This document shows positions 347-59,154 of a DNA stretch of 64,000 nt, one piece after another. Under the pieces are notes generated by a model. That model had not been told where the DNA came from. It saw nothing but the letters and a program-made list of their open reading frames with translations, and did not search any database. The stretch covers positions 62,001-126,000 of the forward strand of contig JBBHKE010001810.1 in NCBI GenBank assembly GCA_037447655.1, given 5' to 3'. Made by a program: the position numbers and the translations under genes. Numbering within the stretch: position 1 is the stretch's first letter; every line of letters starts with the position of its first letter. This stretch comes from Zygnema cylindricum. Taxonomy: Eukaryota; Streptophyta; Zygnematophyceae; Zygnematales; Zygnemataceae.

Positions 347-360
347 TGAGAGGTAAAACA

Positions 361-5733: not shown

Positions 5734-5808
5734 CCAATTTGGCGTCATTACCTTTTCGACCGACTGCCACGTCATGCCGACTCTGTTGAAAAAGTAAAGT
5801 GTATTTCC

Positions 5809-6651: not shown

Positions 6652-6662
6652 GTATTTCCTAG

Positions 6663-17125: not shown

Positions 17126-17130
17126 CCTAT

Positions 17131-19375: not shown

Positions 19376-19522
19376 GAGCCTAGGCAGCCATGGCTCTAGC
19401 TCCCTATCCAGCCTTCAGTGACTACAACAAGTGTGGGGGCTTGGATAGGGGAGTTAGAGGCAGACCGCCTCAGCTCTTTTTCTATCCTTTATACAGACCT
19501 AGAAAATACCCAAATATCAACA
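19376..19522. repeat. 147-bp LTR-terminal fragment inside G
   Basis: It matches only the terminal hairpin module of the copia LTRs: GGCAGCCATGGCTCTAGC, loop CAGTGACTACAACAAG, the complementary right arm, then AGACCTAGAAAATA and a terminus ATCAACA. The stem here pairs CTAGCTCCCTATCC with GGATAGGGGAGTTAG. The remainder of an LTR is absent and no target duplication was found. Confidence 0.7.
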
Positions 19523-20728
19523 CACCACAGGGGGCCGCACCTTCTAGCACAGAAGGACCCGGTTCGCGTCCCGAGGAAGAAGATACTAGAGTCATCTCAC
19601 CAGCTCAGTTTGTAAGCCCCACCGGGCATTCCTCTTCCCATTTCACCAACTCTGCAGAGGAATAAAAAGAGATGTGGGATATCCGGATCTTTACCAGAGA
19701 TAGCTCGGGGATTGCACTTTCAGATTTCGAGTTGTTGTGGAAATCTTTCACCCAATCTGAAATTAACAAGTACCGGGGGGGGGGCATTCTGGATGACTTT
19801 GAAACCACCCTCTTCCCCATGATGGTCAACTACCTGTGTAGAGGGGCGTTGGCGGATTACAAGGAGCGTCAACCTCTTTTGATGGCTTCTAGCATCAAAA
19901 TCTCGGATCCAACTCTTGATGCGACGGATTTACAGGCGGAGGACGACTTGACTGCGGCAGTAGCAACCCCTATGTCTGCCACCTTTACAGCAGACATGAA
20001 ACTAAAGGCACAGGGAAGCGCCTAAGTAAACCATCTTCAAGCCATTTAGGCCGCTCAAGATGCGACTCGCATGGTCGCAAATCTGAACCCTTGTACTACT
20101 CTGCTTAACAAATGGAGACTCCTCTACACCGAGAGGAACAAATCTGCCATCAAGGAATTTACGGAATTCCGATGTTTGAAGAATGAAATCCCACAAACTC
20201 TTTTCAATCGACTCTCCAGCCTTTGCTAGAAAATGAAACTATCAACTATTGACCTTCTAGCTATGGCTACAAAATATTTTATCCTTGTCCGTAACTCGTT
20301 ATGACGGACAAGGCAAACTGCTCTGGATAGTTGGATTGTCAGACAGGCAATTCAGGACCTTAATCCCTTTGCCAATGATATTTCGCTGGTGGCGTGAAGT
20401 CCACGACCACATCGTCCATAGTGAGGCAACGGAGAAGGCCGTGACCTGCAAGGCCTGGGCCAATTTTGTAGGCTTTGCCGCGGAGACCTCATTGAATGAG
20501 GAGGAACAGACTGAACTTCAAGCTTTGCGGAAGCTTAAAGGGAAGCAGGTGGTGGACTTCAGGTCAGAACGAGCAATGGAAGAAGACAACCGAGTATTTC
20601 TTTATAATTCCCTGAATTGTCAACAACCAAGTCATAGGTGGAAGCACTACACCCATAAGCTTAAACCGGAACTAGATCTAAAACTGAAAGAATGCGAAAA
20701 AGAATGCGCTGAAAGGACCGGGAAATAA
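19523..20728 (+). pseudogene. G Gag core
   Basis: Frames include GHSSSHFTNSAEE, then MWDIRIFTRDSSGIALSDFELLWKSF (from 19672), and a later helical, charged frame to 20728 (KAWANFVGFAAETSLNEEEQ, ending KECEKECAERTGK). Stops at about 20023 and 20227, and frame changes near 20290, interrupt it. No named capsid domain is recognised. Helical character and position before a CCHC knuckle support Gag capsid. Confidence 0.5.
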
Positions 20729-20820
20729 CAAGAACGGCTTAAAAGAGAAGGGGGGGGAGAGACAACACGAGTGACCAAGGACACCTAATGTCCAACTCCC
20801 CGAGGCAAAACATCTAAAAT

Positions 20821-21199
20821 GTCCCAATTTCAACTGCGGCAAATCAAACTTCCCAAGTTTGATGACGCCCAAATATCAAATGAAATCCACAGCAAATATA
20901 CCTCCGAACGATCCAAATGTGAGGCTTGTGGTTTCATGTGGCATAAGGAAGGGCAATGCTTCCGCGAGAATGGGGTCCCCAAAGAAATGATGTAGTTTGC
21001 CGTGTTCACTAGTGAAGGAAAACTGTTGTTAACCCTCTCCCACTTCAACTTCTTTACCCTAAGGGACGCAGCGTTCCGCTTACCCAAGAGGAACTAGAAC
21101 GAGCACCGATTGTTCTGACGAGGCTTACCCCGGAGACCATAATCTTGCAACAGAGCCAACAGCTGGCCGCAATGGCTGCTAAATTTGCCGCCCTCCGCT
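20821..21199 (+). pseudogene. G Gag zinc knuckle, left of the copia C insertion
   Basis: The frame from 20821 reads SQFQLRQIKLPKFDDAQ, then the knuckle CEACGFMWHKEGQC (CX2CX4HX4C). A TAG at 20993 follows, then a Gln/Ala-rich stretch (LQQSQQLAAMAAKFAALR) up to the insertion point. The frame resumes after copia C at 35569. The knuckle would bind the element RNA. Confidence 0.7.
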
Positions 21200-23169
21200 T
21201 GTTGTTACCTGACCACTGGAGAAGGTCAGTAGTAGTGGAAGTAGACATAATCGCACTCACAGAAGCTTATCAAGAATCGTAACAAACAACTGTTTTAGGC
21301 ACCACAACAATTCTGTCACAAAGATCCAATACTAACTCAAACTATACCACAATATAGAGTAAATACAAAACTGACAACTCCCAAAGTTTCAGCTCAATTG
21401 ATCCAACATACACCAAGATAGGTAACTCAAAAGTTTCCCAAAAACGGTCTACAAATTACACAGTCTAGAAGTCTAGATACATAAAATGTTCTACATCCTA
21501 GGTTTTATACTCTACACTCAGTTGTCCTACTTCATAGTGTTGTACCGCCGATACAAGTGACCCTAAGAGATACGTCCAACGAACTAAAATTCCACTCAGG
21601 TCAAGTGCTCCTAATCACGCTAAAACTAATCTATCACTTTACAATGAATATTACTCAGAATCTTATACAGGTGATTTGTTCAAATACTTGTCGCCGGCTT
21701 AGTGACACTTTTCTAGGTACGTCCATCCGGCTGTTGCAGAGCACCTGTAAGCGAGTCACTTGTTTATCCTCTTATGAATCTCGTCCGTTGACTTGATTAA
21801 TATTAATCGTAGCTGCGCAGTTCAAATCTTAATCATATTCAAATATATGTAGCTTCGTCGCTGTTGCGTTGTCCTATACCAAATTAGCCGCAGCTGCGTT
21901 TTGTCTCGTTGCGTTGCATGTGTGTTGACCGTGTTGAAATTAATAGATTTCTTGAGTATTTTCTAGGTTAAAAATGTTAGTATAAAAGGAAAAGAAAAAA
22001 GACAGACATCCTGCCTACACCTCCCTCTCTAGCCCCCATACTTGTTGTAGTCACTGAAGGATAGAGAGAGTGGTTGATCCATGGCTGCCTTAGTTCAACA
22101 GGCAGATATTTTTAAGGCTACTAAAAATATACCTGACGGACCCGGGATTTGATCCCGGTACCTGCGGTTCGTCAAGCTGGCCGATAGTGGTCAGCTTTAT
22201 CCTACTAGACTAGGACCAATGCTAAATGCTATAGTATGTGATAGATATATATATATATTTAGGAAGGAGCAAATCCATTTAACTAAAACTGTGTATGGCG
22301 TACATGGATACTGTTTTATAAATGTACCAATTCAAATCGGATACCACGTATTTTGTTTCGACAACGAAACAAATATCGCGCAAGTATTTATTACGGCCAA
22401 GATTGTGTCATGCTGCAAATCCAGCGGCGCACATCATCGCCGAAATCCCGGAGTAGTCACTTTGGCGTTTAGTTACGTGGCATGACCTGGAGCCACGTGG
22501 AGAGATGACATTCGGTCATAGGAATTCCGACGAATGTACGGACGAGTGAAAAGGAGACACGCGTCCACTTAATAGTCCTATCGTACATAGGCCGTACAAA
22601 AGGTACACCGGCAGTAGTATTTTTTGGTACGGTACAGTAATCTGATTGGTCCGTACTACAGTAGATAGAAGTTATTAGATGAAATCAGGACTTAGAAACT
22701 TTTTGTAGGCAGTCACCTCTCCCTTTGAGAGTTTGTACAAATTGGCATTTTTACTGCCTCATAACTTATCGGCTGGTTGGTCGTTTTCAGTGATTCTTTT
22801 TGCTACGCACTCAGGGGAGTCCAAGCTGCACACGTGTGTAGTCAAATGGTCAGTGTGACTTTTTGGGCAGCAGTGGCTGTGGGTTAAAGTGGGCTAGTTA
22901 ACAACTATCTTGAGGCTTCCTGTATTCTGTAGTCCAATGGAGGACACAGAATTGCAGACCGTACAGATCGTATCAAAGATTATCGCAGCTTTGCTTGTCC
23001 AGTCTGCGTTGCAGCTGCGTTGTTCCACTCTACATGTGACACGTACATGCTAGTATCGGTACGAATCCAAAACCTGCACTGTGTTTCAGACGACGACGTG
23101 TGTCCCTATAGATCTATATTTTTACCGTCTTACTATTATGTTGAGACTAAAAGCTTTCCAAAACCAACA
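21200..23169 (-). repeat. 3' LTR of copia C, split by a solo LTR
   Basis: It matches the 5' LTR at 34614-35563 outside the insert at 21932-22956. On the plus strand it starts TGTTGTTACC and ends AAAACCAACA. The end next to 21200 includes the Gag start codon region (GTAGTAGTGGAAGTAGACAT), confirming that this ATG belongs to the LTR. Confidence 0.88.
21932..22956 (+). repeat. Solo LTR (1025 bp) inside the C 3' LTR
   Basis: Starts TGTTGAAATTAATAG and ends ACAGAATTGCA, flanked by the perfect duplication GACCG (21927-21931 and 22957-22961). It contains the hairpin (about 22015-22095), a tRNA-like block with GGATTTGATCCCGGTACC (about 22145), the palindromic pair TTTTGTTTCG/CGAAACAAA (about 22350), ACGTG motifs and GTAC clusters. 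It is the plus-orientation relative of the E1 LTRs. Confidence 0.92.
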
Positions 23170-25080
23170 ATCCTCTAAGCTTTAGACTCAGTATCCCGGC
23201 GGAGCTGCGATGATAACTAGCGCATCATTGCAGCATACAACATAGCAGTTTAACAGGTCACCTAGTCCCACTACATCTCAATGTTGGACTATCGCAGCAT
23301 GGCAGTATAGCAGTGTAGCAATTCAACTATTCACTTAATCCCACTGCATCCCAAGGATACTTCAGCTTAGGAGCAAGAAGAGCTTAGTGAGCATATCAGC
23401 AATCATTTTTGCATCTGGCAAATAACATAATTCAATCACTCTAGAGAAAACTTTTTCTCTTACAAAGTGAAATCTTACATCCATGTGCTTGCTTTGGAAG
23501 TGCTGACTCGAGTTAGAGGCAATGGCAATGGCAGCCTGGTTATCACACCAGATCGCATGTGGACCAACCTGCATGTATCGTAGTTGTTGCAACATGGATT
23601 TCACCCATAGGAGTTCTTTGAGGGCCGAGCTTGCTGCCATATATTTTGACTCCATCGTCGATTGTGCCATGAATTTTTGAAGTTTGCTGCTCTAACAGTA
23701 AGTCGCGTTCCCAATTTGCAGAACGAATCCTGTGGTGGATTTTCGGCTTGGCATGTCGCCATAGCTTGCATCAGTCCACGTTAGCAACTTTACTTCTCCT
23801 CCGTCTAGTGTGAGTTTGAGATCCTTGGTTCCTACCAAGTATCTTAAGACTCTTTTTGCTGCATCATGACCGATTTCCTCGGATTCTATAGACTTATGCT
23901 CAGTACCCCAACTGCTGCAGCAATATCCTGACGCGTACAGTTCATGAAATATATTAAGCTTCCCACTATCTGTCTGAAAGTTATGAGTGTCATAGGATCA
24001 TCCTCCCCTGACTCAAAAATCTCACTGACAATAACACCCGGTTCTATCTCTTCCCCCTCTAACTTCTAGCGAAACTCCATCGATGTTACGCATCCTTTTG
24101 CCCCCTGCATTCCATATTCATCTAACATGTTTCCATAGCCTCGTTTTGAGTCAAAATTTTTAATCACTTGTTCCTATCCCTTTTTACCTGAATACCCAAA
24201 ATATATTTTGCCTCACCGAGGTCTTTCATCTCGAACCGTGAGTTTAAAGCACTTTTGATTTTGTTAATTTCAACCATTGATTTGCTAACTAATAGTTAAT
24301 CAGCTACATACATCGCTATATACATTACTCCATCCTCACCCTTTAAAACATAGACTAAGTGATATGAACTTATCCTTTTAAATCATAGGCTAGTTAGGAA
24401 TTCATCAAGTTTTAGATTCCATTGCCTAGGGGCCTGTTTTAGGCCGTACAAAGATTTTAACAGTTTGCATACTAAGTGCTCTTTTCCCGGTTTTACAAAC
24501 ATTTCAGGCTGCTGCATGTAAATGGTCTCCTCTAGTTCTCCATGCAAAAAGGCTGTCTTTACATCCATCTGATGTATTTCCATATCTTTTATAGGAGCTA
24601 GAGATAGCAAAATCCTAACTATCGAAAATCTTACAACAAGAGAAAAAGTTTCTTCAAAATCAATTTCTTCCTTTTGATTATACCCCTTTGCCACAAGTCT
24701 AGCCTTATATCGTTCAATGGTATTATTTAGATTTAACTTCACCTTGAATACCCATTTGCAGCTGATCGCTTTTCGGTCCAGAGGAAGGTCCACAAGCTCC
24801 CATGTCGAGCCTCCATGATCGACTTCATTTCATCGTTTGCCGCCTCGATCCAGTGATTTCGCTCCGATGATGAGAAGGCTTCTCGGATGGTCAAAGGCTC
24901 CCTTGAAGGTGCCGAGTAGTCGAAGTGAGAACTTGCTTGCAAGCGGCTACTAGATCTTCTTCCCCTCGGAAAGTTGTGGCTGAAATTGACGGATCCGGTG
25001 CATTGCGCTTGTTGCGTTGGTTGCAATCCGTAGGCAGTGTCTGCTGTTGGTCTGCTTCGAAATGAACTTGTTGGGGAAAC
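23170..25080 (-). pseudogene. Copia C reverse transcriptase and RNase H
   Basis: RT pieces: ISCKWVFKVKLNLNNTIERYK, YNQKEEIDFEETFSLVVRF, IHQMDVKTAFLHG, LYGLKQAPRQWNLKLDEF (24383-24793). The YVDD region at about 24300 is degraded. RNase H: MAQSTMESKYMAASSALKEL, WCDNQAAIAIAS, FQSKHMDVRFHFVREKV (23362-23670). Frames are broken repeatedly between 23690 and 24380. Confidence 0.85.
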
Positions 25081-26751
25081 CGATAATGTTCTGACTCCTG
25101 TGTTACCACTGGTGAATTTTGCATTTGTGGGACAATATTATGGATGCTATTTAAAATGACATATTCCTGTACTTTTTGTTGCTTCTGCTGCTTTGTCATT
25201 TTAAATAAGTCTATCAAGTCTAGTTCATCTTTCACAACAATGTTTCTTGCTACAATGATTTTCTGCCTCTTAAAAAAAACACTTTATAACCTTTAGAGTG
25301 ATCATCATATCCTAACAAAATGCCCGACAATCCCTTAGGCTCCATTTTCCATCTATCTATAGACGTATCCAAAATAAAGCACTTACTTCCAAAGACTTTG
25401 AAATGACAGACATCTGGTTTTTCACCTATCTAAATCTCGTAAAGAGTGGTTTCTACCGATCTTGAACCTATCCTATTTTAAATATAAAATGCACAATTTA
25501 ATGCTTCAACCCATAATTTCGGATCCACGTCCTTATCCGCAAACATGGACCTAGAGCTTTCTGTGATAGTTCCATTTAGACTTTTTGAGACCTGGTTTTG
25601 TTCCAGAGAGTATGGGACTGTCTGTTTGTGTTGTTCTGAGACAAGTGCTGGTACTGAAGATGAAGAAGATGCAGCAGTAGTCATCGTAGAACAAATCAAG
25701 AGAGGAAGCTTCCACAAATACCGATGGCTGAACAGAAACTTTGACAGACTATAACTTTCAAAAAAATGCTCCAAACGTCCTGAAAATTTGCCACAATGTA
25801 GATAACATACAAAGAAACACACACACAAAATTTCAATCAATTCCGCTCACAAATCTGTGAGATATGTAGAAATGAAATTACATAAAACTGAATGTACAGT
25901 TTTCATATCATTTGTTCCTAAAAATCAAATTCACTAAGTCCTACTTTTATACACCGAAACTACACTAAGCTGTACGGAGGCATTCCAGCCGTACATCTAA
26001 CATTCTATCACAAATATTTACACCGAAGTTCAGACAACGTAAAGTGATAATGATCTAGTCATGCCTCGTCACTATTTGTTGGCGGCGGCTGTCAGCGGTC
26101 CGATTAGAGGATTTGGCACCGTAGAATTGACTTCACGAAGTCCAGTGGTCCTGCCGAAAATCCGTACGTCCACGGAGGACATACTCACGCATTCTCCCAA
26201 GTGACGACACGTGTCCCAAGTGTGAATGAACCGTGAACTCCCAACTTCACTGTCACACTAATTTCGGTAAGTACCGAACCGAACTCAACCAAAAATAGCT
26301 TAAGTCCTGAACAACTCTCTCTCACAGCTGAGGCATAAAGAGGACTAAAGCTTTCTAAAAACAACAGTTTGTGACTTATACCTTCCTTGAGTAAGAAGTT
26401 TTCAAACTCTTTTGAAGTATATTCCCCGCCATTGTCCGATCTAAGCTCCAAAATTGGCAAACCGTGTAGTTTCTCCGCCTACGCTTTGTAGTGTTGAAAC
26501 TGAGTGAAGACATCACTCTTGTCCTTCATGAAGTAGACTTAAGTAAACCTCGAAAAATCATCTGTAAACGTTACCATATATTTCATCCCTCCGGCAGATG
26601 GTACCTTTGCAGGGCCGAAAACATCTGAATGAATGAGTTGCAAAAGTTTAGTAGACCTATGTTCAGACTCTTGAGGAAATGGTAATCTCTGTATTTTTCC
26701 TAGTGCACATCCATCACACGTTTTAGGTGACTGATTTGACAGAGTGACTCT
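25081..26751 (-). pseudogene. Copia C integrase, interrupted by a solo LTR
   Basis: Right of the solo LTR: CDGCALGKIQRLPFPQ, LIHSDVFGPAKVPSAGG, and SDNGGEYTSKEFENFL up to GISHK at 26367. Left of it: PYSLEQNQVSKSLNGTITES and a linker with KQQKQQKVQEY. The triad Asp, Asp, Glu can be placed as HSDV, RSDNGGEY and LEQNQV. Several stops are present. Confidence 0.82.
25629..26366 (-). repeat. Solo LTR of the A-like family inside C integrase
   Basis: 738 bp, plus-strand ends TGTTGTTCTGAG and AAAAACAACA, flanked by the perfect duplication GTTTG (25624-25628 and 26367-26371). In its own orientation it starts TGTTGTTTTTAGAAAGC, has TATAAAAGTAGGACTTAG (about 25937-25954) and an ATG followed by TTAASSSSSVPALVSEQ near its end. 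It gives an undeleted LTR length for comparison with element A. Confidence 0.92.
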
Positions 26752-27800
26752 TGCAATTCTGTGTCCTCTATAGGACTACAGAATACAGGAAGCCTCTAGA
26801 TAGTGATTAACTAACCCACTAGCAATGGCAACCACGGCTACCCAAGCAGACAAGCAGACAATCTGACTGCACCCCTTTGCAGCATAGACTCCCCTGAGTG
26901 CGTAGAAAAAGAAATCTCTTAAAACGCCCAACCAGGTGATAAATTATAGGGTGGCAAAGATGCCAAATTATACAAACTCTCAAAGAGAAAGAGGACTATC
27001 TACCTAATTTTTCCTAAGTCGTAGTTTTTCCTACTTCTCTCTCACAGCTCCTATCTACTGCCTGTACGAACCAATCGCAACACTGTATAGTACCACAAAG
27101 TACTACTGCCAATATACTTTCTGTACGACCTCTGTACGACAAGGCCATTAAGCGGACGCGTGTCCATTTTTCACTCGTGCGTACGTTCCTCGGAATTCCC
27201 GCGACCGAATAATGTCTCTCCACGTGGCGCCAGGTCATGCCACGTCACTAAATGCTAAAGTGACCATTCCGGGATTTTGGCGATGATATGCGCCGTTAGA
27301 CTTGACGCGAAATTTAATCTGAGCCGTTATAAATACTTGCGCGATATTTGTTTCGCTGTCGAAACAAAATGCGCGATATCCATTTCAAATGAGTACGTTA
27401 CTTCGTACTTTGTAAAACTGTATCCATGCGTGGCGTAAAGAGTTTCAATTAAATCATTTCTGTATAACACAATAGTTTAAATAGTAATGAAACCCTATAT
27501 CTCCTAACGGACTTCTACGACAGACTGGTTAGAGCTAACGATTACGTCGCGCTCTGCCGGTCGTGGGTTCGAGTCCTGCCGGACTCAACCTTTTGTTGAG
27601 AGTGACTTAAGTCACTCTTTAGTCCTTCCTATGGTGCTGAGGCAGCCATGGCTCCATTGCTCTCGCTCTCTCCTTCAGTGACTACAACAAGTATGGGGGC
27701 GAGAGAGAAGAGATGGAGGCAGGCTGCCTACATTTTCTTTACATATTTTCCGCTAATTAATTTAGACCTAGAAAATACAATAAAACTACTTATTTCAACA
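26752..27800 (-). repeat. 3' LTR of copia E1
   Basis: 1049 bp, plus-strand ends TGCAATTCTGTG and ATTTCAACA. It has a tRNA-like module at about 27510-27590 (box-B-like GGTTCGAGTCC), the palindrome AGAGTGACTTAAGTCACTCT (27599-27618), a hairpin at about 27644-27730 and a TTTGTTTCG/CGAAACAAA pair at about 27345. GTAC clusters lie at 27050-27190. The polypurine tract on the minus strand (AAAGGGAG) abuts it at 27801. Confidence 0.9.
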
Positions 27801-28349
27801 CTCCCTTTATTTGCTATTCTAATTTTAACTTTTCTTTTAAACCACATTTTCCCTACAATATTTTAATTTTGGAGAGGGCACAGGTTTGGTCATTATGTCA
27901 CCCACCATTTCCTCATCAGATCTATATACAAGATTCGATATTTTATTCTCCACTTTTTCTCTTACAAAACTTTATCTTATGTCCATATGTTTCGCCTTAA
28001 AATGATGTTTTGGATTGGCTGCAATTGCTATGGCCGCTTAATTATCACAAAACACTTCATGCACTCCCTCCTTCATATACCCTAGTTCTTGAAGCAAGGA
28101 CTTGACCCACATCAACTCTTTCACAGCAGAACAAGAGGCCATGTACTCAGCCTCCATAGTGGATTGAGCACCCACCTTTTGTTGCTTACTGCTCCAACAG
28201 CAAGCACCTTCTCCAACATACAACACATACCCAGAAGTGCATCGTCTCATAGGTGCGTCCCCATAACTGGCGTCACTCCAAGTAGTGATGTCAGTGTGCT
28301 CCCCTCCCAAATGCAACCATAACTCTCTAGTTCCCACCAGATATCTCAT
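27801..28349 (-). pseudogene. E1 RNase H
   Basis: Reads TTWSDASYGDAPMRRCTSGY, CCWSSKQQKV, STMEAEYMASCSAVKEL, VKSLLQELGYMKEG, then a stop after FCDN, and degraded remains of the KAKHMDIR and MVADMMTK blocks toward 27870. RNase H removes template RNA during cDNA synthesis. Confidence 0.88.
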
Positions 28350-29330
28350 GACTCTTTTCGCGCCTCCCAGTCTCTCTTCCTAGGATCATTAAGACTCCTA
28401 CTGAGTACTCCAACTACTACCGCTATGTCCGACCTGGTACAGTTTATAAAAAATATTAAACTTCCTACGACTTGTCTATAAGAGATAGACTTCATAAATT
28501 CTCTTTCCTCTGCACTCATCTGATTGTCTAAGATCATCACTCCTCTTTCTACACTCCCATCACTTCCTTTTTTCAAGTCAATGGGAGTGGTACAACTGTT
28601 AGCATTTTCCATCTGAAATTTCTCAAGCATATTACCTATTGCTTCTTTCTGAGTAAGTCTGACAATCTTCTTTCCCCTATCTCCCTCTATTTGAATCCCC
28701 AAAATATATCTTGCTTCCCCTAAATCCATGTTATCAAATCTACTTCTAAGATCTTTCTTTAACTTATTGATCTTTTCCAAAGATTTACTCATCACAAGCA
28801 AATCATCCACATAAATTGCAATAAAAATGACACCATTCTCATCTTCAAACATATAGATAGAATGGCCAGAGATGATACGGATATAACCCAAACCGGTAAA
28901 AAACTCATCTAGTTTCTTATTCCACTCTCGGGGAGCCTGCTTCATTCCATATAAGGACGTTATGAGCCTGCACACTTTGCTCTCTTCTCCTTCTTCCACA
29001 ATCCCCTCGGGTTGTCTCATGAAAATTTCTTCCTCTAACTCATCATTAAGAAAGGCAGTCTTAATGTCCATCTGGTGTATCTCCATGTCTTCCGCTGCTG
29101 CAAGACTGAGGAGAATCCTTATTGATGGGAACCGAACAACTGGAGCAAAGGTCTCCTCGTAGTCAATCCCCTCCTTTTGGGTGAACACCTTCGCTTCCAA
29201 TCGAGCCTTGAAACTCTTAATGGTATTATTTGGGTTCACTTTTAGTTTAAATACCCATTTACACCCAATAAGTTTTATGTCTGGAGGACAATCGGCTAGT
29301 TCCCAAGTATTTGCTTACATAATAGAAGCC
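28346..29330 (-). pseudogene. E1 reverse transcriptase
   Basis: Reads LNPNNTIKSFKARLEAKVF-like block, EGIDYEETFAPVVRFPSIR, QMDIKTAFLNDELEE, LYGMKQAPREWNKKLDEF, and catalytic YVDDLLVMSKS (about 28790-28820). The frame is open from 29239 to about 28350, where a frameshift separates RNase H. A TAA-type break at about 29316 splits it from the linker. Confidence 0.9.
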
Positions 29331-30660
29331 ATCTCATCATTTATGGCTCTAATCCATCTTTCTTTCTCTTGACTATTCATTGCCTCCAAGTAAGACTGAG
29401 GCTCATCAAGGTGAGATAGCTTAGTTACCTTATGAGCGACTTGTTTTTCCTGTAATCTTTTGCTGCTCCTCCTTCCTCCCTCTAACTCCGAAGCTGGAAT
29501 AGATGGAAGTCTTCGATTTCTTTTAACTGTCTCATCGGCTCCCTTGTCCATGGAAACCGGTTCTTGTTCCGCTTCTTCTATCTCCTCAAAGTCCATAGGA
29601 GTATGTGAGGTTTCTGGTGAGTCTCCTGTATCTCGGATCTCCCCTGAATCTGTAATCACGGTTTCACTCATGTCCCTTTCGGGAACGACCGAGTTCTTCT
29701 CACTTTCGGACTCAAATCTGATTCTTATCTTCTTTGTATATTTGAAAGGGTCAAATGACTTCCCTTCATCCATGACAACTAAGTGTTTGACCAAAATGAT
29801 ATCTTTCTTTGCTAAGTCATAGACTTTATATCCCTTAACATCCTCATCATATCCCACAAAGTATCCAGGTTTTCCCTTAGCATCTAGTTTCCAGTTTTTC
29901 CTATCTGTGTCAGGACTGTAAACTTGGCTACTGAATACTTTAAGGTGTGAGATATCTGGTTTCCTTCCAACCCATCTCTCATAAGGTGTCACTCCCTTTA
30001 CAGCTGAGGTAAGGACTCTATTCTTAATGTAGTTGGCACAGTTCATTACTTTTGCCCAAAATCTCTTTCCTATTTTCTTGTCTGCTAACATACTGCATAC
30101 ACTATCTCCTAGTGTTCGATTCAACCTCTCAGCCACCCCATTTTGTTCCTAGTTATATGGCACAGTTTTCTGGTGTTGTACTCCCTCATCTATCAGATAT
30201 TCCTCAAACTCGTTAGAGGTATATTCCACCCCATTATCACTCTTTATCCTCTTAATGGGGGTTTCATGCAACTTCTCACTCCAAGCTATATATTCTTTGA
30301 AGTAAGTTGATGCTTCAGACTTTGTTTTTAGAAAGAAGACTCTAGAGTATCTAGACCAGTCATCAGTTATTGTCATCATAAACCTTTATCCTCCAACCGA
30401 AGGTACTTTTGCGCGTCCCCAAATATCTGTGTGGACCAAATCTAACACTTTCTCACCTCTATATGTGGCGGCTTTGGGAAAGGGAAGTCTGTGAGCCTTT
30501 CTTTGAGCACAACCACTACAATCATCCATCATTTCATTATCCCCAAACTGAATGCCATCTACTACCCCAAGCTTTTTCATTTCCCTCAACCTATCAAAAT
30601 GCACATGCCCCAACCGCTTATGCTAAATCATCACCTTAGGAACACCAACATAGTAAGCAT
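29315..30660 (-). pseudogene. E1 integrase and linker
   Basis: HHCC zinc module: HKRLGHVHFDRLREM, then CSGCAQRKAHRLPFP. Triad: Asp in LVHTDIWG, Asp in KSDNGVEY, Glu in EQNGVAERL (with a TAG replacing the codon before EQNG). Then ANYIKNRVLTSAVKGVTPYE, GYFVGYDEDVKGYKVYD and an acidic, charged linker with RRLPSIPASELEGGRRSSKR leading to RT. Confidence 0.88.
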
Positions 30661-30675
30661 TATTCTTTTCATTAC

Positions 30676-32157
30676 TCAGGTTAAGCCTAAACATTCCTTG
30701 GCTACCCTTATCTGCCGTGAAGTAAACTTCATCCCCATACTTAGCTGTAAAGACTCCCTTTTGGTGAAGGTATTAAACTCTTTGTCATCTAACACAGACG
30801 AAGAGACAAGACTTTTACTGAGCTGAGGAATGTAGAGTACATCTGAGAATGTAAGTATAGAAGTCTTACCCTCCACTAAGACTTTCAAATCTACTGATCC
30901 CACTAGATTTGTAGTAATCACTCTCCCATCCTGATACTCTATCTCTACAGTAGGGATCTTTTTTAGCTTAGTGAAGAGTTCTTTATCACGACACATATTC
31001 ATGGATGCACCTGAGTCGATGATCCATCCTTCTTGTGAAGCTTCCTGAATTGCTCCAAGGGCACACTTCTGTCTCCGAGGGATCTCCTTCTCCTCCAAAC
31101 TCTCGTCAAGAAGAAGCTCCCCAGCCTCCTCAAAGGACTCATCCTCGGTTTTTCCTGTCACTTTTATAACCACAAGTGCCTTTTTCTTCCCTCCGGAAGA
31201 ACCCCCTCCACGGTTCTCTTGGAGCCTCAGCTTCGACAGCTTGACACAATCTCCGATGAAATGTCCCGGCTTTTTGCAAAAATGACAAAGACCCTTTGGG
31301 GGCCTCGGTCCCCCAGAATTATCTCTTTCCCCTCTATAAGGTTCCTTTAGTTCCTTCCCCCATTGGTCCCCTCTTGCTGCTAGAGCATGAATGCTCTTTC
31401 CTCCTCTCCTAATCTCCATTGTGTTTTCATGCACAAGTATCATTCTAACCACGGTGTTCCATTTCCATGAACTATCAGGCATTTCCTGTACTTGGTACAC
31501 TATGTTCTGAAACTCATTTGGTAACTTCATGATAAGAGTGTTAACTTCATTTTCATTGTGCTTGTCCACCCGGCACTTTCCATCTCCATATACAAATAAG
31601 AAAGATCATTACAGTAATCTAACATCTTACCTCCTTTGAAAGTGTAACTCACTAGCTTTTGCTCAGCCAACTGGAGCTCCTGAATAGTCTAGCTCTATAA
31701 ATCTCCACCAAACTCACCCACAACTCCTCGGCCTTGAAAATGTGAAGATGAGGGGTGGCCAAAGCTTGAGTGAGGTGCCTAAGAATGAAGTTCTTGGCAG
31801 CCATGTTTACATCCTCCCACATTTGAGTATCGTTCTCCACGTACGTCACTGTCGCCACTCCCGATAATGTGGCAATAGGAGTGAGGGGCGTCTCCTTCCC
31901 TTTCCTTTTTTCGAACACACTGCTGTCCCCATCATCTGCCTCCTCCGCTGAGGAAGCCGTAGCTGTAGGAAACCTTACTCCTCCAAATCATGGTGGAGTT
32001 CCTGAAGGTGGATGTTTCACTTGTCCACTGACGATACCCTAATATATTTTTTCGCACAAAGCTCCCATTATCATGGCTTCCCAATAGATGGACCCAGATC
32101 CATGAAGGTGGGTACCCTAGAGGGTGGGCCCATAACCTGGAATTCTGTGTCCTCCAT
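30676..32157 (-). pseudogene. E1 Gag-protease
   Basis: The ATG at 32157 lies in the LTR: MEDTEFQVMGPPSRVP crosses the LTR edge. A frameshift follows at about 32090. Gag continues with HLTQALATPHLHIFKAEEL and helical residues. The knuckle CHFCKKPGHFIGDC is intact (about 31255-31300). The protease motif is IIDSGASMNMC (about 31000-31025). Stops occur at about 31652, 31570 and 30676. Confidence 0.88.
32123..32137 (-). promoter_or_regulatory. Primer-binding site of E1, anticodon-arm type
   Basis: On the minus strand GGTTATGGGCCCACC follows the LTR directly. It is the exact complement of GGTGGGCCCATAACC, the anticodon arm of plant initiator tRNA-Met as I know it. It also codes VMGPP of Gag. Confidence 0.85.
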
Positions 32158-32892
32158 TGGACTACAAAATACAGGAAGCCTCTAGATAGTGATTAACTAA
32201 CACACTAGCAATGGCAACCACGGCTACCCAAGCAGACAAGCAGACAATCTGACTGCACCCCTTTGCAGCCAGGACTCCCTTGAGTCCGTAGAAAAAGAAA
32301 TCTCTGAAAACGCCCAACGAGGCCATAAGTTTTAGGGTGGCAAAGATGCTAATTTATACAAACTCTTAGAAAGAGAGAGGACTATCTACCTAATTTTTCC
32401 TAAGTCCTAGTTTTCCCATCATTATTACTGTTGATAACATATTCTTTCTCAACTTTTTTTTGGTTGGGAATCATAGAATAATCTTTTCTCTCTCACAATT
32501 CCTATCTACTGCCTGTACGAACCAATCGCAACACTGTATAGTATCAGAAAGTACTACTGCCGATGTACTTTCTGTACGACCTCTGTACGACAAGGCCATT
32601 AAGCGGACGCGTGTCCTTTTTTCACTCGTACGTACGTTCCTCGGAATTCCCGCGACCGAATGATGTCTCTCCACGTGGCGCTAGGTCATGCCACGTCACT
32701 AAATGCCAAAGTGACCGTTCCGGGATTTCGGCGATGATATGCGCCATTAGATTTGACGCAAAATTTAATCTCAGCCGTGATAAATACTTGCGTGATATTT
32801 GTTTCGTTGTCAAAAGAAAATGTGTGATATATAATTAATTTTGTCTGTATAAATAATATTTCAAATAGTAATAACACCCTATATCTCCTAAC

Positions 32893-32972
32893 AGACTTCT
32901 ATGACAGACTGGTTAGAGGTAACGGCTATGTCGCGCTCTGCCGGTCGGGGGTTCGAGTCCTGCCGGACTCAA
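32893..32972 (+). other. tRNA-like module in the E1 5' LTR
   Basis: On the strand opposite to the element, GACTGGTTAGAGGTAACGG resembles a D-arm/box A and GGTTCGAGTCC matches the Pol III box B consensus. The T-arm-like stem around the loop pairs over most positions. No acceptor stem closes, so this is not a tRNA gene. It recurs in the D, E1, 37912 and 55313 LTRs. Confidence 0.65.
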
Positions 32973-32982
32973 CCTTTTGTTG

Positions 32983-33002
32983 AGAGTGACTTAAGTCACT
33001 CT
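32983..33002. repeat. Exact 20-bp palindrome shared by LTRs
   Basis: AGAGTGACTTAAGTCACTCT is a perfect palindrome. Identical copies are at 27599-27618 and 56118-56137, and one-base variants in the D LTRs (about 41227 and 46576) and in the 37912 LTR (about 38089). It sits directly after the tRNA-like module. Confidence 0.9.
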
Positions 33003-33184
33003 TTAGTCCTTCCTATGGAGCTGACGCAGCCATGGCTCCATTGTTCTCTCTCTCTCCTTCAGTGACTACAACAAGTATGGGGGCGAGAGAGAAGAGATGG
33101 AGGCAAGCTGCCTACATTTTCTTTACATGTTTTCCGCTAATTGATTTAGACCTAGAAAATACAATAAAACTACTTATTTCAACA

Positions 33185-34674
33185 ACTCCTATTTTACCAG
33201 CATTGACCATCTTTTTCATACTGTCGTAGTTCACCTGGCCTAATCTTTTATGCCACAGCTCATTTGAGGATAATGCATCGGAATACAAATCATCATTTTC
33301 TTTATTATCGTGCATATCCATTCGATACATTTTGCTGGTATCTCTAGTTCCCGTTACTGCAAATTTTCCGTTTTTGCTAACAACTTGTTTGCTATGTTTC
33401 AGACTGACCTCAAACCCTTTACTTTTCTACCAAAGAAGTTGAAAATTTTTTTTTCTTAAAATCAGGGACCTAGAGATTATTATGAAGAGTTCTCTCAACT
33501 GCCATGCCTTCTACATCAACTAGCAAGGAGACATCACCTACTACCCTTGTTTGCACACTCATTCCACATGCATAGTAAATATTTTTCTCCAGTGTTGATT
33601 TCAAATTTTTGAAAATTGCCTTGTTCCAACACATGTGGGCCGACGCTCTCGTGTCCAAAATCCATCCATTGTCTTTCGCGCCCTCCATCGCTGCCGCCAT
33701 AGCAAATAGATCATCATCCTCATTGTTAGAGAGGGAAAAAGACTCGTCTTGATGAGATGAAGAAGCTGAAAATAGTGCATTTCCACGTTGTGAAGATCCC
33801 GTGAAGCATTGATGAAATTGGCTCTGCTGCCATCCAGGCCTGTACAGACCTTTTTCATTAGCTTTCTTAAGCTTTGGACAAAACTTATATCCATGACCTT
33901 TTTCATTACAATAAAAACAAGCATTGAAAGATTGTCTATTTACTCTTGGATTAAACTGGCTAAACTGATTCTCATTCTGAGTAAACTGATTTCTCTGCTG
34001 ATTAAACTGACCTTTTATGTCAAATTCTGTGCTAAATGCCTCTTGTTGTTTTTCATTATTAAGAATTTTAGAATCTGCCTCCTCTTCTTATATCAAATGA
34101 ATAGCTAACTGTAGTGTCCAGCTAGCTTTATCTTTCTGTTTCAGCCTATCATAAAATGCTTTCATAGTAGTATAAAGACCTCTCATTAGCAAAGCAGCTT
34201 GCTGAAACTGAGGAAAAGATCCAGCTGCACAAGCATGAGAATCTATTAGTATTCAAAATTTGTTACAATATTCTGCCATTTTGCCGCTTGTGTATTTGTA
34301 GTCCCAAATCCATCCAGCTAAAAATAGTTCCTCATGAACATTAGCCTTTTCAAAATCATCCTTGAGAGATTTTGAGATAGCGATCGCCTTTCTCATTTTT
34401 ATCCCTGACATAGCCAATTCTTCTTAGATACAGAATTTCAAAATTGACCAAGCTTGCGAATTTTTCTTTGACCAAGACGGATCTGTTTCCCCCAGTGAAC
34501 CATCCAAAATATCCAAAAAGCTAACATTTTTGAAGTGTGTCTCCACCATATTCGCCCAATAAGCGTATTTTTTCCCCGTAAAAATAGGAATTCTTGATGA
34601 CAAGCCCATAACTTGTTGTTCCACGACCACAGGAGCTGGTGAAGCATCAGCAGTAGTAGTGGAAGTAGACATAA
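33185..34674 (-). pseudogene. Copia C Gag-protease and start of integrase
   Basis: ATG at 34674 lies in the LTR and gives MSTSTTTADASPAP. The Gag motif QQVMGLSSRIPIFTGKKYAYW crosses the LTR end at 34614. The knuckle is CFYCNEKGHGYKFC (about 33880). The protease site reads WILDTRASAHMC (about 33650), with Gly replaced by Arg in the catalytic triad. The integrase start LWHKRLGQVNYDSMKKMV ends at the E1 insertion (33185). Stops occur at about 34430 and several later points. Confidence 0.85.
34601..34613 (-). promoter_or_regulatory. Primer-binding site of copia C
   Basis: On the minus strand AGTTATGGGCTTG follows the LTR end (AACAACA). It shares GTTATGGGC with the D and E1 sites and encodes VMGL of Gag. 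Confidence 0.65.
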
Positions 34675-35563
34675 TCTCACTCACAAAAGCTTATCAAAAA
34701 TCATAACAAATAGTTGTTTTAGGCACCACACCAATTTTTTCACACAGATCCAACAGTGACTCAAACTAGACCACAATATAGAGTAAATACAAAACTGACA
34801 ACTCCCAAAATTTCAGCTCAATTGATCCAACATACACCAAGGTAGGTAACTCAGAAGTTTCCCTAAAACGGTTTGCAAATTACATAGTCTGGAGGTCCGG
34901 ATACATAAAATGTTCTACATCCTAAGTTTTATACTCTACACTTAGTTGTCCTACTTCATAGTGCTGTACCGCCGATACAAGTGTTCCTAAGAGATATGTC
35001 CAACGAACTAAAATTCCACTAAGGTCAAGTGCTCCTAATCACGCTAAAACTAATCTATCACTGTACAATCAATATTATTGAGAATCTTATACATGTGATT
35101 TGTTGAAATACTTGTGGCCGGCTTAGTGACACTTTTCTGGGTACGTCCATCCGGCTGTTGCAGAGCACCTGATAGCGAGTCATTTGTTTATCCTCTTATG
35201 AATCTCGTCCGTTGACTTGATTAATATCAACCGTAGCTGCGCACTTCAAATCTTAATCATATTCAAATATATGTAGCTTCGTCGCAGTTGCGTTGTCCTA
35301 TACCAAATTAGCCGCAGCTGCGTTTTGTCTTGTTGCGTCATAGCTCTGTTGACTGTATAGATTTTATCAAAGAATAGCGCAGATGCGCTTGTCTCGGCTA
35401 TGTCGCAGCTGCGTTGTTCCACTGTATGTGTGACACGTACATGCTGGTGTTGATACCAATCCAAAACCTGCACTGTGTTTCAGACGACAACGCGTGTCCA
35501 TATAGATCTATATTTCCATAGTCCTACTAATTTGTTGAGACTGAAAGCTTTCCAAAACCAACA
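34614..35563 (-). repeat. 5' LTR of copia C
   Basis: 950 bp, plus-strand ends TGTTGTTCCACG and AAAACCAACA. A TATA-like TATAAAACTTAGGATG (minus strand) lies near 34917-34932. It contains repeated GCAGCTGCG motifs (about 35280-35430). Confidence 0.88.
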
Positions 35564-35568
35564 CCGCT

Positions 35569-35714
35569 TGGCATCTACATCACGGGTTGCATCTCTCACT
35601 GCAGCAAAAAGACTGCAGAAAAAGAATCAGGAGTTGTTAAAGAAGCTTGCGGAGCTTGAGCTTCAAAGCATAGCGGGTGCTAACGATGATGACTTAATGG
35701 GCTCAGATTTATAA
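35569..35714 (+). pseudogene. G Gag continuation, coiled-coil-like
   Basis: Right of copia C the frame continues as ASTSRVASLTAAKRLQKKNQ, then ELLKKLAELELQSIAG, and stops at 35712. Heptad-like Leu spacing suggests a short coiled coil. The exact frame match to the left half is the best evidence that G was interrupted here. Confidence 0.7.
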
Positions 35715-36420
35715 CCTCCAAATGCCCACCATACACAACTTTCCTTTCCTCAGCTTGGAATGTAAGGGTGGGAGATAACCGCGGACAACTCCGCCATTTT
35801 ACCTCGGAGCAAAGAAAAGACAAACAGCGAATGGGTCAGAAGGACCACAACAGGTAGGCTAATGGGCCTTTGTCATTCACTCCACGGGCGGTGATCCTCA
35901 ACAGCGACATCGACTTTGGAACAAAACCCACTCATCCGCCATTTTATCCTGCCAAACCTAAACTGCCTCCCGATTTTGAAAACTACAAGAGCGAGAAACA
36001 ACAGCTAGAAAAAGAGTCACTAGAAAGAGAAAAACAAAGTTATAAAGATTAGTTTGAGAGATACATGGCAGAACGTCCGGACGATGACACTTCCCAGACT
36101 CCACCATCACCAAATTCCGGCTCCGAGAGTGACGAAAAGGAAGGAAAAGAGCAGAATTAGCAAGAACCAGATTCCCCAACATCTTCACCAAAAGCTCAAC
36201 TTCCTTCCTTCTAGCCGGTTGTCATGCTAGTCCGCCACGTTATGCCCTACGCCCTTAACCACGTCAAAACTCTGGCATCCTCCCACAACCTGCCGAAAGA
36301 AATCCTCATTCAGGCATTAAGATAAAAGATACACTTTGGGAAAGAGAGAGTCAATAAAGCAACTCCACCGAGAGCCGTCTTTTTGTCTACCGATCCGAAA
36401 ACCCCTATGGTGGAAAGGGA
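35715..36420 (+). pseudogene. Decayed linker of G between Gag and protease
   Basis: Frames are short. Charged Lys/Glu-rich pieces (EKQQLEKESLEREKQSYKD at about 36000) and acidic Ser/Pro pieces can be seen but no domain. About 700 bases. Confidence 0.4.
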
Positions 36421-36862
36421 CTACAAAGCCTTATCAGTGGCTCTTATACTGAACTGAACGGGAAATTTCAAACTCAACGGGTACGTAGGATATCAGGACG
36501 ATGTGGTCGACACCGGAGCGCTCCCCAACCTCATCACCACCTCTGCTTTACAGAAAATGCCCAAGGAACTTCGACCAAAAATCTGCCCAAGCAACATCTA
36601 CTTGAGCACGGTTAGTAGCGGTAGTTAGCTAGTCCATGGGATTATCAAGGCCATGAAAATTGAATTCTCCGATAACACAGGCCAACGGGTGAAAATTGAG
36701 CTCCCATTTTTAGTGGTTGAAGGAACTCAATTTGAAATCCTGTTGGGAATGGCCACATGGACGTGGATGCATATGGGGTTAAGCGTGTGGAAAGAACAAT
36801 GTACCGTTCGGGACCATGGAAATCTGGAAGGAACCAAAGTGGTGGTTCCTTTAGACTTATAG
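36421..36862 (+). pseudogene. G retropepsin-like aspartic protease
   Basis: The frame reads DYKALSVALILN, a stop, then GYQDDVVDTGALPNLITTSAL with the active-site triad Asp-Thr-Gly (about 36509). It continues IKAMKIEFSDNTGQRVKIEL and FEILLGMATW, matching the flap and hydrophobic-Gly (ILLG) ends of retroviral-type proteases. Two in-frame stops (about 36457 and 36627) inactivate it. The protease would process the G polyprotein. It lies about 285 bases before the methyltransferase. Confidence 0.75.
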
Positions 36863-37146: not shown

Positions 37147-37911
37147 GTGGTGTCATTAACGGTTCCCGATTTAGGCCTCCGGATTTTATATTTTTTTTGT
37201 GGAATCGGTTTTGATCTGGAAGCCGTTTTGAAAGCACGATATCTGGTAGAATCTTATAAAGCCGTGGAGAAATCGCCTGAAGCACGAGTTGTCAGCGAAC
37301 ATCGCCTCCAACAACTTCACAACCTATATCCTCAACAACTTTAAGTGTCGGCAATTTCCAAAGCTCACTGGAGTCTCCACAGAATGTGGATAATATTATG
37401 ACACCTCATCTGGCAAGTTTGGGAAGAGTACATCTAGTGGTGGCAGGATGGCCTTGTCAGAGATACTCCCTAGCAGGACAAAGAAAAGGGCATCGAGACC
37501 GGAGGAGTGAAACATTTTTCACAATGGTGCAGTCAATATCATGGTTACAACAACTCCAAAACACACCAGTAGGGTATGTTTTGGAAAATGTTCACCCAAG
37601 AGATGATAAACGCAGACATGTGGCCAACAGTTGGGATCAGGTTACCCATATTTTAGGGGCTCCATTAGCCTTTGATGGAGCACAGATGGGATCCCGGGCA
37701 CACCGAGTCCGAGCTTACTGGACCAATTTAATCTTGCTTTCGATACTCAAGAAAATCTTGGAGAAGCAGATCCCAGACTCTCAGAACTATGTGCAGCAAA
37801 TCCTCAAGAAAGGGCAAATAGCAACACCTGTGACAAAAACAGACCGTCCTCCATTCTTCCACTGCAACCAACCGGGAAGTCCACGCAGAGTACTTCTTAC
37901 AATAGTTTCCT
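37147..37911 (+). pseudogene. C5 cytosine DNA methyltransferase domain of element G (frameshifted, truncated)
   Basis: The protein carries motifs in C5-methyltransferase order. Motif I, ILYFFCGIGFDLEAVLKA (SAM binding, about 37177). Motif IV, VVAGWPCQRYSLAGQRKG, with the catalytic Cys of Pro-Cys-Gln (about 37443). Motif VI, GYVLENVHPRDD (about 37576). Motif VIII-like, GSRAHRVRAYWTN (about 37690). A one-base frameshift at about 37341 separates motif I from motif IV. The frame then stays open until the LTR at 37912, which removes motifs IX and X. Residues after LLTIVS are LTR sequence. The Cys, ENV and Arg positions are intact. It resembles DNMT3-like enzymes more than bacterial ones, by eye only. 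Capture of such enzymes by LTR retrotransposons is known from some streptophyte algae and dinoflagellates. Confidence 0.82.
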
Positions 37912-38904
37912 TGTTGAAATCACTAGATTTAGGGGAGATATTTTCTAGGTCTTAATTAAAATAAAAATGAAAAGCAAAGGCAGTCTGCCTCCACCTTCTC
38001 CCTCTAGCCCCCAAACTTGTTGAAGTCACTGAAGGAGAGAGAGGGCGGTGGAGCCATGGTTGCCTTAGCTCCATAGGCAGGGCTTAAGAGTGACATAAGT
38101 CACTCTCAACCAAAAGGGTTGAGTCCGGCAGGACTCGAACCTCCGACCGGTAGGGCGAGGCATAGCCGTCAACCCTTACCAGTCTGTCGTAGTAGTCCGT
38201 TAGGATACATAGGGCTCGACAGCTATTTAAGCAATAGATAGACGACTAATCCGATTAACGGAATTACAAATAGGATACATAGAAACCAGTTGGGGAATTA
38301 AGTGCGCACGAAACAAATGTACCAGACATTCGTTTTTGAACGGCTGGGAATTAAAGCCGGTTTGGATCCAACGGCCCGCACCATCGCCAGGATCCCTGAA
38401 TGGCCGTTTTGGCGGTTTGCGGATGTAACATGACCTATCGACACGTGGCAAGATATCATTGGGAAGCACGAATCTCGGGGAGCATAAGGGCAAGTCCAAA
38501 GGAGACATACGTCCACTCCATGGCCTTGTCGTACACTAGCCGTACAGAAAGTACATCGGCCATAGTACTTGTCTGTACTGAACAGTCTTCTGATTGGTTC
38601 GTACATCAGTAGATAGGTGTTGTGAGAGGGGTTTAGAACTTAGAGGATTGACGAGGTAGCCGCCTCTCTCCCAACAAGCTTGTGTATATATTGGCATCTT
38701 TGCCACTTGATAATTAATCGCCTGGTAAGGCGTTTTCAGTGATTCTTTTTGCTGTGGACTTAGGGGAGTCCAATCTGCACAGGGGTGCAGTCAAGTAACC
38801 TATTTGTCTGCTAGGGTAGCAGTTGCTCTTGTTGAAATTGGGTTAGTCAAAAAATACCTAGAGGCTTCCTCATTCTTGGTCTAAATGGAGGACACATAAT
38901 TGCA
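37912..38904 (+). repeat. LTR at a chimeric junction (no matching duplication)
   Basis: 993 bp, starts TGTTGAAATCACTAG and ends CATAATTGCA, closely matching the D LTRs in the opposite orientation. The left flank is the methyltransferase of G (TTCCT) and the right flank is integrase of copia B (TGGAC), so there is no target duplication. Two different elements are truncated at its edges. Confidence 0.9.
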
Positions 38905-40428: not shown

Positions 40429-41420
40429 TGCAATTCTGTGTCCTCCATTTAGACCAAGAATGAGGAAGCCTCTAGGTAGTTTTTGACTAACCCACTTTCA
40501 ACGAGAGCAACTGCTACCCTAGCAGATAAATAGGTTACTTGACTGCACCCTTGTGTAGATTAAACTCCCCTGAGTCCGCAGCAAAAAGAATCACTGAAAA
40601 CGCCTTACCAGGCGATTAATTATCAAGTGGCAAAGATGCCAATATATATACAAGTTTGTTGGGAGAGAGGCGGCTACCTCCTCAATCCTCTAAGTTCTAA
40701 ACCCCTCTCACAACCCCTATCTAGTGATGTAGGAACCAATCAGAAGACTGTTCACTACAGACAAGTACTATGGCCGATGTACTTTCTGTACGGCTAGTGT
40801 ACGACAAGGCCATGGAGTGGACGTCTGTCTCCTTTGGACTTGCCCTTATGCTCCCCGGGATTCGTGCTTCCCAATGATATCTTGCCACGTGTCGATAGGT
40901 CATGTTACATCCGTAAACCGCCAAGACGGCCATTCCGGGATCCCGACGATGGTGCGGGCCGTTGGATCCAAACCGACTTTAATTCCCAGCCGTTCAAAAA
41001 CAAATGTCCGGTACATTTGTTTCGTGCGCACTTAATTCCCCAACTGGTTTCTATGTATCCTATTTGTAATTCCGTTAATCGGATTAGTCGTCTATCTATT
41101 GCTTAAATAGCTGTCGAGCCCTATGTATCCTATCGGACTACTACGACAGACTGGTAAGGGTTGACGGCTATGCCTCGCCCTACCGGTCGGAGGTTCGAGT
41201 CCTGCCGGACTCAACCCTTTTGGTTGAGAGTGACTTAGGTCACTCTTAAGCCTTGCCTATGTAGCTAAGGCAGCCATGGCTCCACCGCCCTCTCTCTCCT
41301 TCAGTAACTGAACAAGTATGGGGGCTAGAGGGAGAAGGTGGAGGCAGACTGCCTTTGCTTTTCATTTTTATTTTAATTAAGACCTAGAAAATATCTCCCA
41401 TAAATCTAGTGATTTCAACA
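40429..41420 (-). repeat. 3' LTR of copia D
   Basis: 992 bp, plus-strand ends TGCAATTCTGTG and GATTTCAACA. tRNA-like module 41143-41214 with GGTTCGAGTCC, near-palindrome AGAGTGACTTAGGTCACTCT (about 41227), hairpin 41269-41353. The minus-strand polypurine tract AAGGGGAG abuts it at 41421. Confidence 0.92.
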
Positions 41421-57194: not shown

Positions 57195-57199
57195 AGTTG

Positions 57200-59142: not shown

Positions 59143-59154
59143 TGGTATCAAAGC
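59143..59154 (+). promoter_or_regulatory. Primer-binding site of element H
   Basis: TGGTATCAAAGC differs by one base from TGGTATCAGAGC, the usual plant site complementary to the 3' end of initiator tRNA-Met. It lies two bases after the putative LTR end CTATTACA. This is the conventional primer type, unlike the copia elements here. Confidence 0.8.

Follow-up and report, generated by a model that had tools for sequence, protein, structure and literature searches.

Dead remains of a Ty3/Gypsy retrotransposon with a DNMT3-like methyltransferase in Zygnema cylindricum point to a family in liverworts and Closterium

We analyzed a 64,000-nucleotide stretch of Zygnema cylindricum DNA, referred to here as the window. 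The window almost certainly holds a dead, truncated Ty3/Gypsy LTR retrotransposon, the polyprotein of which ran from Gag through protease and a DNMT3-type methyltransferase (DNMT) to RT, RNase H and integrase, with the last three now lost. We also have hardly any doubt about how the element was broken: a nested Copia element split its Gag, stops and frame changes interrupt its coding sequence, and a Copia LTR took away the end of the DNMT with all that followed. The window copy is dead, as its stops, its frame change and its cut-off end show. The main value of the finding lies in the family to which this copy points rather than in the copy itself. The parts of the element and the sequences that interrupt it are as follows (P0004 and L001, named here and below, are relatives of the element).

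19990..20235, plus strand: decayed Gag capsid-like stretch (frame +1; gag profile iE 5.1e-9)
20846..21004, plus strand: Gag CCHC zinc knuckle region CEACGFMWHKEGQC of the DNMT element (frame +2; P0004 residues 205-257, tblastn E 2e-6)
21195..21199, plus strand: left copy of the TSD CCGCT
21200..35563, minus strand: nested Copia-type element splitting Gag (TG...CA ends; repeats and self-BLAST; perfect 5-bp TSD)
35564..35568, plus strand: right copy of the TSD CCGCT
35569..36409, plus strand: C-terminal Gag part (frame open over the insertion site to TAA at 35711-35713)
36410..36859, plus strand: retropepsin-type aspartic protease (DTG at 36509-36517)
37147..37377, plus strand: N-terminal part of the DNMT (frame +1; motif I FFCGIG at 37192-37209; stop TAA at 37342)
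37377..37911, plus strand: DNMT core (frame +3; motif IV PCQ at 37452-37460; motif VI ENV at 37584-37592; motif VIII AHRVR at 37698-37712)
37912..38904, plus strand: Copia-family LTR truncating the DNMT element (96% identical to the LTR at 40429-41420)

The C5 methyltransferase piece was recognized by Pfam as PF00145 (E 8.4e-8; score 32.4 bits, cut-off 22) in a 224-amino-acid ORF at 37281-37955, and TIGR00675 (dcm) missed its cut-off (score 42.6 bits, cut-off 100.65). When the DNMT of P0004 was used as the tblastn query, it matched 37180-37377 and 37377-37922 with a joint E of 9e-50, the larger piece scoring 151 bits. In the control, the window was shuffled 20 times by dinucleotide blocks, and the top score over the queries P0001-P0004 was 29.3 bits. 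The window DNMT core was 47 to 49% identical to P0002, P0003 and P0004 over 178 amino acids.

The preliminary description had reported motifs I, IV, VI and VIII with the catalytic Pro-Cys-Gln. All of them were found, between 37192 and 37712, spread over two frames with one stop among them; the letters were read from the sequence, and the motif numbers are those that we assume them to carry. Since motif I lies in frame +1 and motifs IV, VI and VIII lie in frame +3, the frame must change at least once, near 37377. With the TAA at 37342, this frame change and the end at 37911, an ordinary full DNMT reading frame is not present in the window copy. Motifs IX and X, both of which are present in the relatives P0002 and P0004, are missing together with a complete open frame. 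These motifs and all downstream parts are absent because the Copia-family LTR starts exactly at 37912. This LTR is flanked by TTCCT and TGGAC, which are unequal and form no TSD, so the junction probably arose by recombination or deletion. The CpG observed/expected ratio of the DNMT element (0.67) was near that of the whole window (0.71), indicating no special methylation scar in the element.

Upstream of the DNMT, a protease had been claimed at about 36509, and this identification held: the DTG codons stand at 36509-36517, residues 597-744 of P0004 match 36410-36859 in tblastn (E 2e-18), and a protease profile matches 36434-36805 (iE 1.4e-12). Pfam alone gave only sub-threshold matches to the window protease (PF13650, E 0.011). 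The protease frame contains 10 stops (seven TAG, two TAA and one TGA), and the excess of TAG is compatible with C-to-T change at CAG sites, without being proof of it. The DNMT had also been placed less than 300 bases past the protease. The two are indeed near each other on the same strand, and the matched parts lie about 320 bases apart, close to that figure.

The Gag pieces were found with a gag profile made from P0004, P0021, P0038, P0051, P0068 and L001, and with P0004 itself. At the zinc knuckle (20846-21004) the profile alone gave only iE 1.6, and its remaining matches within the window were at iE 0.15 or worse. Gag (19990-21199) lies about 15 kb upstream of the protease, and the roughly 14 kb between them consists mostly of the nested Copia element. 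This element has LTRs at 21200-23169 and 34614-35563, the first of which is interrupted by a solo LTR, and it contains a second nested Copia element at 26752-33184. Past the TAA at 35711-35713, the C-terminal Gag part passes into the protease frame with stops. The order of the parts in P0004, the perfect CCGCT TSD and the open frame across the joined flanks together indicate that Gag, protease and DNMT belong to one plus-strand element. By homology to the relatives, Gag with its zinc knuckle and the aspartic protease are thus both present upstream of the DNMT. The proposal that a protease-bearing retroelement had captured the methyltransferase was borne out, as Gag, protease and DNMT of P0004 match the window in order and on one strand.

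We then searched the window for the missing downstream half. With P0002-P0004 as queries, no further piece of the DNMT element was found anywhere else in the window, and neither an RT of its own, nor an RT-RNase H-integrase region, nor paired LTRs with a TSD were found for it. Two candidates were rejected. The RT at 62135-63237 has 30 to 35% identity to the RT of the relatives, as measured against 56% between the RTs of P0002 and P0004, and it belongs to another Ty3 element. The sequence from 46776 on was rejected as a continuation since P0002-P0004 had no match there.

The window as a whole is plant-like, repeat-rich DNA. Its nested insertions include a full Copia-type insertion at 40429-46774 (TSD AAAAG), the one at 26752-33184 (flanks ACTCT/ACTCC) and the solo LTR at 21932-22956 (GACCG), each nested in older elements. 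Beside the Copia 5' LTR end on the minus strand, 34600-34613 and 46780-46788 seem to resemble the anticodon arm of an initiator tRNA-Met, which is the pattern of half-tRNA primers. A decayed Ty3/Gypsy element at 60280-64000 has gag, CCHC, protease, RT, RNase H and the integrase zinc domain, and no methyltransferase was found in its plus frames up to the window end. Long ORFs run on both strands of 17357-18665, just left of the Gag remnant, where the GC content is 0.52 (18001-20000); no Pfam match was obtained in the three plus frames scanned. The sole host gene noticed was a plant-type aminoaldehyde dehydrogenase, with exons on the minus strand from 3146 to about 5000. The Pfam scan for host genes covered both strands of 1-10001 and the plus frames of 17130-19493 and 57001-64000. 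Rfam gave nothing at gathering scores.

To describe the family, we collected 70 different proteins from three protein searches, which yielded P0001, P0002-P0004, and 67 matches with P0003 as the query (E 0.01 or better, P0003 itself included). Five come from Marchantia polymorpha (P0014, P0021, P0022, P0038 and P0051; four of these marked partial), one from Calypogeia fissa (P0010), and four from Closterium sp. NIES-53/54 (P0063, P0066, P0067 and P0068). P0006 is filed under a bacterial MAG name, which is probably contamination, and most of the other relatives come from metagenome or ENA records. No Klebsormidium-named protein was among the 70. Judged from protein domain order alone, host-gene status was established for none of them.

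The position of the DNMT was classed from the flanking domains. It lies upstream of RT in 11 of the 70 relatives, and after RNase H and/or directly before integrase in 13, eight of which (P0040, P0043-P0046, P0052, P0058 and P0060) were classed by the following integrase only. A protease-like motif, found as a letter pattern, stands upstream of the DNMT in 10 of the 70, and 36 have no usable flanking domain. P0051, a partial Marchantia gene model with RNase H and integrase pieces directly after the DNMT, was manually assigned to the class of unknown position. In P0002-P0004, DNMT and RT share a single ORF with no stop between them. P0004 joins Gag-like, protease, DNMT and RT regions in one protein, with strong Pfam matches for RT and DNMT, a sub-threshold one for protease and a zinc knuckle at E 0.33. 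In P0004 and L001, the Gag and protease regions were named from their position, from patterns and from their homology to each other; Pfam assigns them to no gag family and gives the protease sub-threshold matches only. The order RT-RNase H-integrase was found in P0002 and L001. The DNMT had been described as standing after the protease and before any RT, and the same order recurs in P0004 (Gag-PR-DNMT-RT) and in L001.

L001, a nearly complete relative, came from a GTDB scan with alignment A2, which returned 49 loci, the other 48 being weak or short (24 to 47% identity). The 9285-bp contig, CADCWO010000201.1, is catalogued with a cyanobacterial MAG; since L001 is a retroelement, the MAG probably contains eukaryotic contamination. 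The contig begins and ends with the same 127 bases, as a circular assembly path would, and its one noncoding stretch lies at 6636-8608, where the LTR ends were not delimited. ORF1 (1346 amino acids) contains a Gag-like region with a zinc knuckle, a DSG protease (PF13650, 20.5 bits, below the cut-off of 24.3) and the DNMT. It ends in TAG followed by CAA TCA (L001:3489-3497), a stop of the UAG-CARYYA type. ORF2 (1047 amino acids), in the same frame, contains RT, RNase H, integrase and a PHD finger (PF00628, E 4.3e-10). According to a review, efficient readthrough has the consensus UAG_CAR_YYA (PMC3542737). Only 2 of the 190 TAG triplets of L001, both strands counted, have this context, and one of them is the ORF1/ORF2 junction. 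This leaky-type stop context after the DNMT was found in a single contig, L001.

Six proteins extend more than 150 amino acids past the integrase; 3 of them show a PHD pattern there, and PF00628 is listed by the database for a fourth, P0045. The integrase ORFs of L001 (6459-6593), P0044, P0045, P0058 and P0060 end in a PHD finger, a chromatin reader that these DNMT-bearing Gypsy elements have in addition to the writer.

The class of the enzyme was analyzed by profile and by fold. A profile of 26 relatives, searched against PDB sequences, had DNMT3A as its top match (E 5.8e-23), followed by DNMT3C and DNMT3B, with DRM (1.5e-11), a DNMT2-type enzyme (7.7e-8) and HaeIII/HhaI (4e-7 to 6e-7) ranking lower. 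The window piece alone had DNMT3A as its best match (E 0.00055), with HhaI at 0.0038. For the predicted structure of P0009 (pLDDT 80.2, pTM 0.75), the best ten folds were all DNMT3A/B/C chains (E 6e-15 to 1.5e-14), with TM scores by target of 0.76 to 0.79 for nine chains and 0.51 for one longer chain, and by query of 0.52 to 0.56. Profile and predicted fold therefore place the relatives in alignment A2 nearest to DNMT3, with motifs that are not rearranged. Pfam found no PWWP, ADD or DUF3444 domain in the relatives scanned.

The careful DNMT tree had 69 rows, namely 67 proteins, the window and L001. P0001 (by hand) and P0065 (less than 200 amino acids) were left out of the DNMT tree, and P0070 and four outgroup rows were also left out of the careful one. 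Support is given among 27 rows of four named groups. The window grouped with P0002-P0004 (94/80, a little short of the star, and in 98% of the 200 bootstrap trees), the liverwort rows formed one group (100/100), and the Closterium rows formed another (100/99). Over the 35 rows of known position (22 on the PR-RT side and 13 on the RNase H/INT side), the DNMT position changes once; the 13 rows form one group (100/98), and none of 500 label shuffles was as low. The quick tree of 74 rows left the place of the window near P0002-P0004 without resolution. Rooting with DNMT3A and phage rows had support 0, so that neither a single capture, as against host DNMT3, nor the direction of the DNMT move is proven. 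The RT tree (10 relatives and one outgroup) also grouped P0002, P0003, P0004 and P0065, its deep order being without resolution. The window copy adds a deep, dead branch to the DNMT-bearing family.

Could the window DNMT be a host DNMT3 gene or pseudogene that lies beside a retroelement fragment by chance? It is broken, its surroundings are a jumble of nested elements, and DNMT3 genes exist in non-flowering streptophytes (PMC6453930). Against this, in all three of its nearest relatives the DNMT is part of a polyprotein and shares its frame with RT, and one of the three has protease and Gag as well; the protease and DNMT of P0004 both match one window stretch in order; and the careful tree puts the window with these same three proteins. 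We consider a chance neighborhood highly improbable and rejected it on the polyprotein relatives and the ordered P0004 matches. A bacterial or phage methyltransferase, or contamination, was also considered. Phage C5 methyltransferases do match weakly (249 phage records, the best-covering at 26.6% over 81% of the query, E 6e-6). In IMG/VR, the window ORF found no DNMT relatives, and alignment A2 gave 53 weak matches (best segments 28 to 58% identity), which we presume from their sequences to be phage-type methyltransferases. The weakness of the phage matches, the profile and fold nearest to DNMT3, the element relatives that match the window at 47 to 49%, and a context of Copia-type elements and plant-type dehydrogenase exons leave this origin with a negligible chance, and it was rejected.

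The gene order and homology described above, the fold class of the relatives, and the stop of L001 with its context are observed, and from them we built a mechanism for intact members. De Mendoza et al. (2018, PMC5890265) propose methylation of element cDNA. By analogy with this case and with DNMT3, a packaged DNMT in intact relatives might methylate the cDNA of the element before or at integration, which we put forward tentatively, at somewhat less than an even chance. The DNMT would be translated within the Gag/Pol precursor, and the element protease would release it or leave it attached. The DNMT would then enter the virus-like particle and methylate newly made double-stranded cDNA, so that a new copy could arrive in the genome with host-like 5mC already. 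In L001, Gag and DNMT both precede the leaky-type UAG, and readthrough would give the DNMT at a Gag-like amount and RT-INT at a fraction of it. This dose idea would fit only some lineages, because P0002-P0004 are without the stop and 13 relatives have a Pol-side DNMT. Packaging, catalysis, target, timing and any effect on silencing are likewise what we infer for these elements. Taken together, the dead DNMT-bearing Gypsy copy and the cDNA-methylating mechanism in intact relatives make up a likely explanation.

A more elaborate scenario is doubtful, and we offer it as speculation. An old streptophyte Gypsy lineage, in liverworts and zygnematophytes, might have captured DNMT3 once and moved it once between the PR-RT and the RNase H-INT positions. 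A leaky-UAG branch might package the writer at a Gag-like dose, and the PHD finger of the integrase might read target histones, the two forming a write-and-read pair that pre-marks the parasite DNA.

The explanation in which the enzyme methylates element cDNA has competitors that concern its use. The DNMT may have been kept for a non-catalytic role, as a module that binds nucleic acid or serves assembly or as a decoy for silencing, and the KnitGypsy-Dnmt3 enzyme of Klebsormidium indeed had no activity in yeast, a result that its authors call inconclusive (PMC5890265). Among 59 DNMT domains of at least 280 amino acids, crude letter patterns found strict PCQ missing in 9 and other motifs missing in more (ERE.AMG-type present in 46, motif I type in 36, E[NS][VFL] in 36 and motif X type in 35), so that many copies may be dead, divergent or mis-modelled, or the patterns too narrow. 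On the other hand, PCQ is kept in 50 of the 59 domains and AHRxR in 52, and KnitGypsy-Dnmt3 is under purifying selection (PMC5890265). On balance, a non-catalytic role is improbable. It was also proposed, by Morozov and colleagues, that the methyltransferase is kept for the benefit of the host in defence against DNA viruses. This role is put forward in a 2019 paper (PMC6338049) that argues, in the passages available, from the absence of transposon methylases in land plants such as tracheophytes, whereas the family found here has proteins in Marchantia and Calypogeia, liverworts and hence land plants, if not tracheophytes. No virus link was observed for the DNMT elements here, and we regard an antiviral role as very unlikely.

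Methylation of element cDNA, the preferred reading, would bear on a broader question. 5mC is normally the host's means of silencing transposons, and an element with a de novo type enzyme of its own lets one ask whether parasites exploit it. Concrete predictions on dose and packaging follow from the leaky-type stop and from the existence of two positions for the DNMT. Since Marchantia polymorpha is a laboratory model, its members would make the self-methylation question directly testable.

A Gypsy element with DNMT3 in Pol is already known from Klebsormidium nitens as KnitGypsy-Dnmt3, with Ka/Ks below 0.2 (PMC5890265). Like the element described here, it has a streptophyte host and a Ty3/Gypsy Pol in which a DNMT3-type methyltransferase is embedded without rearrangement; its repeats are DIRS-like according to the figure legend, and it was compared here by description only (PMC5890265). 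Unlike it, the window copy is dead, and the relatives span liverworts and Closterium with two DNMT positions. The two may be of one sub-type. A 2025 paper names DNMT-bearing streptophyte LTR elements Copia (PMC12344493), whereas the original says Gypsy (PMC5890265). The Marchantia methylome paper reports five DNA methyltransferases in three classes (MET, CMT and DRM), and its available passages mention no transposon-borne one (PMC5784723). Among the open-access PMC matches listed, none reports a DNMT-Gypsy element from a liverwort or from Closterium, a DNMT in two alternative positions, or a leaky-type stop, which does not prove absence; within the literature searched, these liverwort and Closterium members, the two positions and the stop appear to be new.

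SymbioDIRS-Dnmt3 and SymbioLINE-Dnmt of Symbiodinium are likewise DNMTs borne by retroelements, and two SymbioDIRS-Dnmt3 copies were active in yeast, where this DIRS DNMT3 carried out de novo CG methylation; they differ in having a DIRS (tyrosine recombinase) or LINE backbone rather than that of a DDE-type integrase element (PMC5890265). In orchids, Gypsy elements have captured an AlkB-type m6A demethylase, likewise a nucleic-acid-related domain but a different one (PMC9289625). With the host enzymes DNMT3 and DRM, the relatives share the catalytic fold, and their motif order I-IV-VI-VIII-(IX-X) is that of DNMT3; they differ in being embedded in Gag/Pol and in not being rearranged as in DRM. 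Gypsy chromoviruses carry a captured chromatin-related domain as well, their integrase ending in a chromodomain, whereas some integrase ORFs of the DNMT elements end in a PHD finger.
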